DNA from: a virus
Direction: 5' to 3' (one strand)
Length of the DNA stretch: 35,187 nt
IMG/VR virus record: IMGVR_UViG_3300034045_000024
Coordinates: 1-35,187 of that record
The translations under genes were made by a program, and so were the position numbers. Shown one piece after another: positions 4,381 through 13,515 of this stretch. The notes under the pieces are model-generated. The model saw only the letters and a list, made by a program, of their open reading frames with translations, was not told the origin of the DNA and searched no databases. How positions within the stretch are numbered: the stretch's first letter is position 1; the number at the start of each line of letters is the position of its first letter.

Positions 4381-5193
4381 CTAGTGTCTTGTTTTGTTTT
4401 GATTATTGATAGTTCTCATTGCCATATCCTTATCAACATATTTAAAAAGGTTTTGCTCAAAGATTGGGTCAAATAAATTTGATTTTGTGTGCCCTATTTT
4501 TCTGGCAATTTCTTGTAATTGGATAGTGAGGCTTTCCAGTTCATGCCATCTATGTTGTGCAACCTTGTTCCAAGTTGATGAATATTTGGCGTTTTGCTTT
4601 AGTTCTTCACATTCAAAATCACGTATTGGTGTTTCATTGATTAATTTAACTTGTTCGTCAATTGGTCGAACCCCTAGAAAGTGACAAGCTTGTGGATAAT
4701 CTGTTTTCAAAATGTCCTTGTAGGTGCTTACTTGAAATTGTCTTTTTAGTTGACCATAAAGAAATTGATGCGTGTATTGTTCGCTGTGACATAAGTTGTT
4801 TACAGTTTGGTAAATGTGACCGCATTGTTCTTCACTTAAAAATCTTGCTCTTGGGTTTGGATTTTCATATTTGCCAGTTTTTCTGATTGATGGCAATACT
4901 TGTTCAAATACCCAGTCTTGAAATGCTTTGGCTGATTTAAGCTTGGAGCCGAATATTAAACGGTATAAATCTGGTTCTCCAATTACTGCTACATTCTGCG
5001 CCCTGCCTAGCTTGTCAGTTATGGGGTGGTGATTCGCCACCCCATCTTTGCAATGAGTTTTAATGGCGTTGATTGTATCTTTGTAACCAAGTGCCAGTGC
5101 AACATCTTTGGCAACAAATGAAGGATTGTTTGGATTGTCATTAATGACACGAATTTGATTTGAATTAAAATCAAAGTTTAATTGATTAGACAT
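4381..5193 (-). CDS. Phage antirepressor with Bro-N domain
   Basis: 270 residues from the ATG at 5193. The reading frame stays open 77 codons upstream, but that part is the structured leader, and a Shine-Dalgarno (GGAG, 5203-5200) lies seven bases before this ATG. The N-terminal Bro-N domain (about 12-105) shows 'FVAKDVALALGYKDTINAI', 'VIGEPDLYRLIFGSKL' and 'AKAFQDWVFEQVLPSIRKTG', the standard signatures of this fold. The C-terminal half is a helical effector domain not recognised further. Antirepressors of this kind inactivate the phage repressor. The gene has its own sigma70-like promoter and a c4-like leader, so its expression is probably controlled by antisense RNA. Confidence 0.88.
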   Translation of the reverse strand: MSNQLNFDFNSNQIRVINDNPNNPSFVAKDVALALGYKDTINAIKTHCKDGVANHHPITDKLGRAQNVAVIGEPDLYRLIFGSKLKSAKAFQDWVFEQVLPSIRKTGKYENPNPRARFLSEEQCGHIYQTVNNLCHSEQYTHQFLYGQLKRQFQVSTYKDILKTDYPQACHFLGVRPIDEQVKLINETPIRDFECEELKQNAKYSSTWNKVAQHRWHELESLTIQLQEIARKIGHTKSNLFDPIFEQNLFKYVDKDMAMRTINNQNKTRH

Positions 5194-5383
5194 GATAGTC
5201 TCCTGAACGAATTTAGTTTTTTCGCCACTTTTTAGATGGTGGCGGGCTTCACTAACCGCGTTCAGACGGCGGAGCTTATTTCCCGAAGGTATTTTATTAA
5301 GCTCTCCAGACCCGCCATAAATTTTTGGCGTAAAAAAACCGCATAGAGTTGACGGGTGCGGATAACCGCTGAACGTTGTTAGG
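5194..5383 (-). ncRNA. c4-like antisense RNA / structured leader of the antirepressor gene
   Basis: On the minus-strand RNA the sequence CTGAACG (5265-5259) can pair with CGTTCAG upstream (5375-5369) or with a second CGTTCAG (5209-5203) that runs into the antirepressor Shine-Dalgarno. A second exclusive pair exists: TGGCGGG (5317-5311) with CCCGCCA (5246-5240), and the latter also forms a local hairpin CGCCAC/GTGGCG (5244-5239 with 5228-5223). A small hairpin with a TTCG loop lies near 5284. Alternating pairings over the ribosome site of an antirepressor, behind a strong promoter, are the hallmark of the phage P1/P7 c4 RNA. The 3' end of the processed RNA cannot be located by eye. Confidence 0.72.
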
Positions 5384-5389
5384 ATTCCC

Positions 5390-5418
5390 ATATTACTCCA
5401 GTGATTTAAGTTTGTCAA
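5390..5418 (-). promoter_or_regulatory. Sigma70-type promoter for c4-like RNA and antirepressor
   Basis: Minus strand: TTGACA (5418-5413), 17-base spacer, TAATAT (5395-5390). This is a near-consensus promoter placed just after the exonuclease stop. Transcription would start near 5383, at the head of the structured leader. It would let the c4-like RNA be made in the lysogen independently of PL. Confidence 0.75.
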
Positions 5419-5425
5419 ATACATT

Positions 5426-6049
5426 TCAAAACTCCACGTTTAAGTATTCATCAATTTCAGCCTTCTCTTTTTTCAACTGCTCGCTGAAATATAAAACCGA
5501 TTCTTTTATTTTTTTTATGAGTATTTCATCTCGCTTGATTGTTAAAATCAAAGGTCTGTATGATGGGTGATAGCTCATAAAATCCCATGTTTTGTAGCCA
5601 CTAAACAACATTCCCGATTGAACTTGAATGATATATTTGGTTGGCATAACTCCTGCCCGAACGTACCCGATATGGGTGTTTAGGTTAGGGCACTTAATTT
5701 CTAATCCGCGCTTTTCTGATTCAATTAAACCATCGGGTGAACATATTGTTTCTCTGTTTTCATCAAGGAAAATTCCTCCAACTTCACGGACTTTAAAACC
5801 AGTTAATTGCTGATACAATTCTTTGGCTTTTGGTTCCATCTCATTGCCGCGTTCCATTGCTTTAGACTTAAAGCTCTCAGCTTGATCAGGATCAACATAT
5901 TCAGCCAACAACTTGTTCATGTATTCATTTGCGCTTGATGATGCTTTGCCAGTTGATGTAATTATTTTGTCAAATTTTGAACTTGTTGGAATAAACTTGC
6001 GAGCGTCCAACCACGTTTCAGAGCCCTGAATGCAATCTAATAAAATCAT
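5426..6049 (-). CDS. YqaJ-family phage exonuclease (lambda Exo-like)
   Basis: 207 residues from the ATG at 6049, which overlaps the upstream stop as ATGA; a GTG three codons earlier is possible. The PD-(D/E)xK nuclease core is clear: 'QGSETWLDARK' near the N-terminus, Glu in RGNEMEP (70-72), D106 in SPDGLI, E117-x-K119 in GLEIKCP, and the Gln motif YIIQVQSG (139-146). Lambda Exo-type enzymes degrade one strand of double-stranded DNA to give the substrate for the annealing protein. Co-operonic with Bet, so together they form a two-component recombination system. Confidence 0.92.
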   Translation of the reverse strand: MILLDCIQGSETWLDARKFIPTSSKFDKIITSTGKASSSANEYMNKLLAEYVDPDQAESFKSKAMERGNEMEPKAKELYQQLTGFKVREVGGIFLDENRETICSPDGLIESEKRGLEIKCPNLNTHIGYVRAGVMPTKYIIQVQSGMLFSGYKTWDFMSYHPSYRPLILTIKRDEILIKKIKESVLYFSEQLKKEKAEIDEYLNVEF

Positions 6050-12763: not shown

Positions 12764-13453
12764 TTAAGGTAATTCAATCTTTACATCAATCACTTTCCCA
12801 AGGACTCTAAAATTTTCAAATATCTTTTTATAAACAGGGTCTTTGTTCAGTGGGTTTAAATATGGTGTTGCACCATCGTATTTTAATTGTTTAAAGGTTA
12901 CTGCATCATTGCCATTTTCTTTAGCGACAACAAATATTCCATTGGTTGTATCGCCTTTTTGCTCTGGGTCAACAATAATTATGGTGCCTTCAGGAAAACT
13001 ATAAGGTCCTGAATCTGTGGTCATTGAATCACCCATTACTCTTAGGGCATAGGTCATATTTGAGTGTTTTTTATAACAGGTCACTTTTTCATACTCTTCT
13101 GATTCGTCAATATAGGCAACGTGGGTACTGCCTGCCTGTATCCATGAGATGACAGGCACTTGTTTTGTTTTGGGGACACTTGCGGGTTCTGTGTTGGGAT
13201 TATAATGTAATGATGGTTCATTCACCGCATAACTTGCACCTGCCTCCTCTGGGTGTACTCCGTAGAGAATGTATTCTGGTGTTGTGTTAAGAATTTGACA
13301 AAGACTTGTTAAGCTTTTAGCTGAGGGCTTAGTCTTATCAGACTCCCATTGATTAACAGATGGTGGCTCAATACCTAATTTTTCAGCTAATTGACGCTGG
13401 TTAATACTTAAGTCTGACCTTAATTTTTTTATTCTATCGCCGATTGTATTCAT
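12764..13453 (-). CDS. CI-type repressor, LexA/S24 peptidase
   Basis: 229 residues from the ATG at 13453; an in-frame ATG nine codons earlier gives an extra segment without HTH content. XRE helix-turn-helix at about 4-62 ('QLAEKLGIEPPSVNQWESDK'). The S24 domain has cleavage site A107-G108 (WIQAGST), catalytic S143 (VMGDSMT) and K188 (VTFKQL). RecA-stimulated self-cleavage, and so induction by DNA damage, is expected. A TACAAT hexamer (13466-13461) lies close to the ATG, so the lysogenic transcript may be nearly leaderless, as for lambda cI. Confidence 0.94.
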   Translation of the reverse strand: MNTIGDRIKKLRSDLSINQRQLAEKLGIEPPSVNQWESDKTKPSAKSLTSLCQILNTTPEYILYGVHPEEAGASYAVNEPSLHYNPNTEPASVPKTKQVPVISWIQAGSTHVAYIDESEEYEKVTCYKKHSNMTYALRVMGDSMTTDSGPYSFPEGTIIIVDPEQKGDTTNGIFVVAKENGNDAVTFKQLKYDGATPYLNPLNKDPVYKKIFENFRVLGKVIDVKIELP

Positions 13454-13473
13454 AGTTTGTATTGTAAAACTTG

Positions 13474-13515
13474 TTGACATAGGTATGCTTTATAATTTAT
13501 ATTAAGCATACTTAA
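13474..13515 (+). promoter_or_regulatory. PR promoter and operator region
   Basis: TTGACA (13474-13479) with a -10 of TTATAT (17-base spacer) or TATATT (18). AGGTATGCTT (13481-13490), shared with PL, lies in the spacer. TTAAGCATACTTAA (13502-13515) is TTAAG-N4-CTTAA, the same format as the PL palindrome. GTATGCTT and AAGCATAC also form an inverted pair across the region. It lies between divergent cI and cro. Confidence 0.75.

Follow-up and report, generated by a model that had tools for sequence, protein, structure and literature searches.

A probable c4-like antisense leader of sRNA-Xcc1 (RF02221) type ahead of a phage antirepressor gene

How is a phage antirepressor gene controlled when its start codon lies behind a long leader with competing internal pairings? 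We analyzed such a locus in a stretch of viral DNA of 35,187 nt, referred to here in its entirety as the window. An initial annotation had proposed that the leader carries a c4-like antisense RNA acting on the antirepressor. We find that the leader very probably exerts c4-like antisense control and falls into the sRNA-Xcc1 (RF02221) class; its RNA would block translation of ant in trans and may attenuate its own leader. The features involved are as follows.

5390-5418, minus strand: sigma-70 promoter, TTGACA (5418-5413)-N17-TAATAT (5395-5390), from a sequence scan; start expected at ~5383
5378-5382, minus strand: a1, leader CTAAC, complement of GTTAG in the c4 joining strand; 5 nt only in the window
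5369-5375, minus strand: b1, leader copy of the target, CGTTCAG, then a conserved CGG (comparison of leaders)
5358-5369, minus strand: candidate antiterminator hairpin GCGG-UUAU-CCGC (minimum-energy leader fold)
5332-5361, minus strand: candidate intrinsic terminator CCGCA...UGCGG-U7 (survey of stems before T runs in homologous leaders)
5238-5317, minus strand: c4-like antisense RNA, ~80 nt (RF02221 match and a covariance model built without the window)
5317-5310 with 5247-5240, minus strand: closing stem TGGCGGG/CCCGCCA of the c4-like fold (sequence and fold)
5259-5265, minus strand: b', specificity tag CTGAACG in the hairpin loop (tag comparison across elements)
5251-5256, minus strand: a', joining strand GTTAGT, second pairing element (own-versus-other leader comparison)
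5223-5244, minus strand: local hairpin CGCCAC...GTGGCG competing with the closing stem (fold; homologues have similar hairpins there)
5213-5217, minus strand: a2, ACTAA, upstream of the target (joining-strand comparison)
5203-5209, minus strand: b2, target CGTTCAG, overlapping the Shine-Dalgarno AGGAG at 5204-5200 (sequence and homologues)
4381-5193, minus strand: antirepressor gene, Bro-N plus ORF6C, 270 aa (Pfam Bro-N 9.5e-22, ORF6C 2.3e-5; PHROG anti-repressor Ant 4.3e-41)
12764-13480, minus strand: CI-like repressor gene (PHROG transcriptional repressor 9.7e-45)
12-1040: integrase gene (PHROG)

The promoter and the pairings described in the initial annotation are all present on the minus strand. 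The TTGACA-N17-TAATAT element matches the consensus at 10 of 12 positions and is the sole hit of the promoter scan in 5150-5500, where shuffles expect 0.6; at a strict cut-off, promoter-like pairs lie upstream in 29 of 107 homologous leaders, versus 1.5% in shuffles. From the expected start at ~5383 to ATG 5193, the leader measures about 190 nt. CTGAACG (5265-5259) has its two CGTTCAG partners, one upstream (5375-5369) and one at the antirepressor Shine-Dalgarno (5209-5203), and the 3' strand of the closing stem alternatively pairs with GTGGCG at 5228-5223. Two features had been missed. One is a terminator-like stem with seven U (5361-5332), located after the promoter and before the c4 fold; the other is a further short pairing element, GTTAGT (5256-5251) with CTAAC (5382-5378) and ACTAA (5217-5213). 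Folding of the 191-nt leader gave -58.1 kcal/mol (z -3.5), equaled by 0 of 200 shuffles. The folding energy of the c4-like part by itself is not unusual (z -1.2), so energy alone proves little. In the minimum-energy fold of the 191 nt, the loop is base-paired in cis to the leader copy and the Shine-Dalgarno stays open; an unprocessed transcript folded as predicted might thus escape control.

The downstream gene encodes a Bro-N type antirepressor, as had been proposed, with the Pfam and PHROG matches given above. The likeliest protein for it to act on is the CI-like repressor, whose gene, together with that for the integrase, fits a temperate phage. The cassette is flanked by a YqaJ exonuclease gene (6058-5426, minus strand) and a gene at 4369-3344 (minus strand), with RecT upstream. 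The YqaJ exonuclease and the 4369-3344 product match residues 1-145 and 210-486 (the C-terminal half), respectively, of the same RecE-like PHROG, phrog_7655, as if promoter, c4 and ant had split a single gene or operon unit in two. Leftward early transcripts may plausibly run through the leader. A DNA methyltransferase gene (2604-1318, minus strand) separates the early region from an excisionase/PrtN-like gene.

To collect relatives, viral and genome contigs were scanned with a DNA pattern of the conserved arm that contained no pairing tag. A filter for closing stem and hairpin passed at least 141 elements, from Pasteurellaceae, Enterobacteriaceae, Xanthomonadaceae, Neisseriaceae, other Proteobacteria and phage records; a few weak passes among these are chance, and certain later tallies omit 16 of them. 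For each hairpin loop, the longest exact complement was sought in the 95 nt downstream and in the upstream leader. Over the at least 141 elements, loops matched their own targets over 6.04 nt versus 4.39 nt for the targets of other elements (sd 0.07, 1000 permutations), and their own leaders over 6.53 nt versus 4.56 nt for other leaders. Among the matches listed, 119 distinct loops showed a match of at least 7 nt with their own target in 46% of cases (crossed pairs, 2.1%) and with their own leader in 66% (crossed pairs, 3.0%). About 37% of the distinct loops among the matches listed have no nearby target match of 6 nt; for some of these, symE or unknown genes lie downstream and there is a leader match only. 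Tag and target read CTGAACG/CGTTCAG-GAG in the window, CTAGTC/GACTAG-GAG in Aggregatibacter phage S1249, CTGTTTG/CAAACAG-GAG in Aaphi23 and TTTGTTG/CAACAAA-ATG in Pasteurella Pmp1. A median of 8 nt separates the end of the target from the start codon, and with b2 of at least 6 nt, the start codon of an ORF of at least 50 codons lies within 25 nt in 80 of 89 homologues, versus 22% at random positions.

There is a second pairing element as well. The strand that joins the hairpin to the closing stem is complementary to a few nucleotides immediately upstream of each tag copy, matching its own leader over 6.55 nt and other leaders over 4.94 nt. In 98 of 105 leaders a precedes b, as in the P1 annotation (a1-b1, a2-b2). 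In the window it spans 5 nt only (GTTAG/CTAAC, TTAGT/ACTAA) and would not stand alone. The features first noticed at this locus are more than chance: the three-way complementarity persists among relatives whose tag sequences differ.

The fold was assessed in the ten closest relatives, aligned with a stated structure and with the window left out; a 64-sequence MAFFT alignment had misregistered the 3' strand between subgroups. In these relatives, 97.8% of cells are paired and 9 pairs have changed on both sides, with 28 doubly changed cells compared to 8.0 in shuffles. The covariation score was unmatched in 500 shuffles, and sliding the partners destroys the covariation. Covariation in homologues, the absence of which the initial annotation had named as refuting its proposal, is found both in the stem pairs and in the tag, the latter over 119 loops.

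Between promoter and c4 fold, 91 of 108 leaders have a stem that abuts a T run, which shuffled sequence equals in 8%. There are 36 distinct stems, including CCGCA/TGCGG, TCAC/GTGA, CCAAC/GTTGG and CCCACC/GGTGGG; P1 and P7 leaders carry CCGCA/TGCGG-type stems at the same place. CGG directly follows the leader tag in 78 of 105 leaders. The window stem (5361-5332) is not listed by a generic terminator scan with loops of up to 8. Its predicted probability rises from 0.01 in the free leader to 0.90 with b1-CGG bound, and over 88 leaders the corresponding values are 0.38 free and 0.84 with tag and CGG bound. With shuffled 5' regions, masking raises the probability too, by a smaller step (0.59 to 0.77). 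The change is opposite in 3 of 89 leaders, and the candidate antiterminator helix differs between leaders. Averaged over leaders, the modeled switch exists, but its effect is modest. A GCGG/CCGC antiterminator common to all leaders was rejected, being absent from those with TCAC/GTGA or CCAAC/GTTGG terminators. A pairing between the closing stem and the terminator loop CCCGTCA was also rejected, because the stem varies and the loop stays constant. Many leaders retain CCCG(T/A)(C/T)AG in the terminator loop despite the changing stem, and no pairing partner for it was found.

Leader anatomy, fold, three-tag covariation and antirepressor identity are documented at the level of sequence; for RNA release, trans action, the translation block, attenuation and the effect on lysogeny, we infer the following mechanism. 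The promoter, constitutive in appearance, would give rise to a leader transcript, from which the 80-nt RNA (5317-5238) would be released by processing, as for P1 c4. Acting in trans, its CTGAACG loop, helped by the joining strand, would pair with the CGTTCAG that overlaps the Shine-Dalgarno on the mRNA for the Bro-N antirepressor. This pairing would block antirepressor translation, so that the repressor stays active and lysogeny holds. The RNA would also pair with the leader copy, CGTTCAG-CGG, and open the hairpin that otherwise blocks the terminator; when plentiful, it would stop its own transcription and that of ant. Taken on its own, the attenuation step is slightly more likely than not. 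That the element works like c4 we hold with high confidence: its loop is complementary to the antirepressor ribosome-binding site, the two pairing elements come in the same order, and an antirepressor lies downstream. This part of the initial proposal, an RNA directed at the antirepressor start site, stands on comparative evidence, whereas its family proves to be the sRNA-Xcc1 class and not C4 sensu stricto.

Evidence from other genomes bears on RNA release. RIBO-seq of E. coli EDL933 recorded sRNA-Xcc1 as an untranslated 89-nt minus-strand RNA with 40293 transcriptome reads, an RPKM of 25609 and ribosome coverage of 0.02 (PMC5331693). In the stretch of the re-sequenced EDL933 chromosome that we scanned, an 89-nt RF02221 match (L252:14620-14708, minus strand) lies directly upstream of an annotated phage antirepressor and has the tags AAATAAG/CTTATTT/AAATAAG-GAGG, a 7-nt match. 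This is very likely the same abundant RNA, with assembly coordinates differing by ~2.6 kb. In 104 of 125 homologues, the closing stem is tRNA-like with a 3' end RCC, suggestive of a processed short RNA (RNase P). A sequence scan of Gifsy-1 found terminated IsrK, a C4 fold and an antirepressor, the same plan as in the window. PMC4825925 describes experiments on Gifsy-1 isrK-orf45-anrP and STnc1160 as a processed, discrete RNA in Salmonella; it likens the system to P4 CI/seqA, and in the accessible part c4 goes unmentioned.

Gifsy-1 also raises the possibility, which we consider doubtful, that the main regulator is the terminated leader RNA of ~50 nt (5383-5332), pairing with the c4-like part to turn the antirepressor on, with the c4 fold chiefly a cis lock. 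The order of promoter, leader, terminator, C4 and antirepressor is the same there, and short IsrK pairs in trans and activates anrP translation, as PMC4825925 reports. Constitutive orf45/STnc1160 strengthened IsrK growth arrest rather than weakening it (PMC4825925), which counts against our preferred explanation. Moreover, leader:c4 pairing exceeds c4:target pairing, both in the window (-27.6 versus -19.6 kcal/mol) and in the mean over homologues (-20.3 versus -16.1). Yet the closing stem ending in RCC is widely kept, and discrete RNAs are released in EDL933 (PMC5331693) and, as STnc1160, in Salmonella (PMC4825925). A short leader RNA may well act besides c4 repression, not instead of it.

Control purely in cis is unlikely. 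Here the loop would alternate between b1 (start site open) and b2 (closed) within one transcript, like a riboswitch without ligand. One RNA can form both pairings, and loop:b1 is what the 191-nt minimum-energy fold uses, but a discrete, abundant short RNA comes from the homologous locus (PMC5331693), P1/P7 c4 works in trans (PMC12197685), and a closing stem kept across homologues, with its RCC end, is in keeping with a processed RNA.

We return to the preferred reading, a c4-like RNA acting in trans, and to its family. At its own thresholds, Rfam reported no family in the window. The best match in a permissive search was sRNA-Xcc1 (RF02221), full-length (model positions 1-87 of 87) at 51.0 bits, 2 bits short of the gathering score of 53 (E 4.7e-8 with cmscan, 4.9e-10 in the record search). 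Searching the minus-strand region with the Rfam C4 model (RF01695), a check proposed in the initial annotation, gave 18.8 bits (E 0.87) against a gathering score of 45. P1, P7 and Gifsy-1 give proper matches with this model, so the model works and the window element is not C4 sensu stricto. The isrK (RF01394) and c4-a1b1 (RF03163) models had no match in window positions 4900-5700 up to E 10; both match Gifsy-1, and c4-a1b1 also matches P1 and P7. Model R1, built from the ten relatives without the window, found the element at 77.7 bits (E 1.2e-16), with no other match in the window. R1-found loci in G001, G002 and G004-G007 exceed the RF02221 cut-off, and siblings of the window element score 49.6-67 bits with RF02221. 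The element is ordinary for the sRNA-Xcc1 class, to which it belongs by structure and kinship, at 2 bits below the curated score. Membership in the C4 family proper of P1/P7 is accordingly improbable: the two-element plan and order are those annotated in P1 (a1/b1, c4, a2/b2), but it is refuted at the curated threshold, R1 does not find the C4 of P1, P7 or Gifsy-1, and the class has a conserved extra arm, AAUAnAAyACC...GGrAAUA, that is not in P1 c4.

The 347-aa frame that begins at ATG 5424 and ends at 4381 is almost certainly not a real gene: it is open for 77 codons above ATG 5193, but such an open frame occurs in only 23 of 103 homologues (median 20 codons), ATG 5424 lies upstream of the promoter, and a strong Shine-Dalgarno precedes ATG 5193. 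The same frame (5424-4381, minus strand) spans the promoter and the c4 fold in frame with the antirepressor, and a gene caller may annotate it, hiding the RNA.

Compared with known systems, the window element shares fold and conserved arm with sRNA-Xcc1 of Xanthomonas and integrons. RF02221 has been studied as a virulence-linked sRNA of plant pathogens, and its annotations in many genomes come with no assigned role. The founding sRNA-Xcc1 has been described as a trans-acting sRNA under HrpG/HrpX control, located in integron cassettes upstream of symE (PMC12444791); unlike the window element, it is not described as an antirepressor regulator. P1/P7 c4, a processed 77-nt RNA, is alike in promoter, leader a1/b1, a2/b2 at the ribosome-binding site and antirepressor operon, and the P1 leader shares the CCGCA/TGCGG-T stem with the window. 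However, P1 c4 is of another sequence family, and P1 controls icd-ant1/2 by coupling, whereas the target in the window is the start site of ant itself. Gifsy-1 isrK-orf45/STnc1160-anrP has the terminated short leader RNA, then the C4 fold, then the antirepressor gene, but its fold is of the C4 family, the window has no isrK match, and PMC4825925 reports activation through orf45. The second element and leader terminator are conserved in the window class, as in P1 c4 and Gifsy-1 isrK-anrP. P22 sar RNA is transcribed antisense to the ant leader from a separate promoter, and no leader copy of its target is known. It is alike in antisense repression of the antirepressor start site (PMC12197685). 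In satellite phage P4, compared by description, the CI RNA (seqA/seqC) is an antisense RNA cut from the leader that pairs with up- and downstream copies and promotes termination (PMC4825925), but it regulates P4's own replication operon, by termination only.

What appears to be new is that RF02221 is largely a c4-like antirepressor-control family, found also upstream of symE genes. Our literature search found no paper linking sRNA-Xcc1 with c4 or antirepressors, and the class appears not to have been recognized as c4-like in the literature searched. Among the matches listed, Pfam domains in 114 downstream proteins comprised P22_AR_C (21), Bro-N (19), KilA-N (19), AntA (16), P22_AR_N (15), pRha (11), ORF6C (9), ORF6N (6) and SymE (5), counts that overlap since some proteins carry several; most of these genes encode antirepressors. 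A protein-based search for relatives gave two viral loci and no genome loci. Both viral records are without an RF02221 match, so close antirepressors can lack the RNA.

We see about even chances for a wider reading, in which sRNA-Xcc1 as an entire family is an antisense immunity module that can be moved and retargeted. On a constant 80-nt scaffold it would carry a fast-changing tag of 7-8 nt that reads a Shine-Dalgarno and a leader terminator switch, serving at least six antirepressor domain types; it would have moved onto symE toxin-like genes in integrons, and the founding Xanthomonas sRNA would be a recruited phage control element. If this is true, one RNA blocks antirepressor translation and shuts off its own transcription. 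Apart from this wider reading, the c4-like assignment gives RF02221 a likely function, and with the tag expected to decide cross-regulation among prophages, immunity groups might be read from sequence. The old c4 puzzle of why there is a second, upstream target copy becomes testable, the leader copy being predicted to sit on a terminator switch.

Some elements depart from the common arrangement. Five lie upstream of SymE-family genes (L208, L140, L166, L169 and L181); in L169 the tag lies over the symE Shine-Dalgarno, and the two Xanthomonas cases, L208 and L140, have a leader match only. Seven Xanthomonadaceae elements (L162, L163, L168, L174, L183, L141 and L237) have a perfect leader match of 7-8 nt and a terminator of the form GGTGGG-T6. 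The proteins encoded downstream of them are related, but no target lies near the start, raising the question of leader-only control; the two downstream proteins searched, those of L162 and L237, had no Pfam match. In Aggregatibacter phage S1249, tandem c4-like folds (L004:2332-2413 and 2566-2644) with different tags precede one antirepressor gene.
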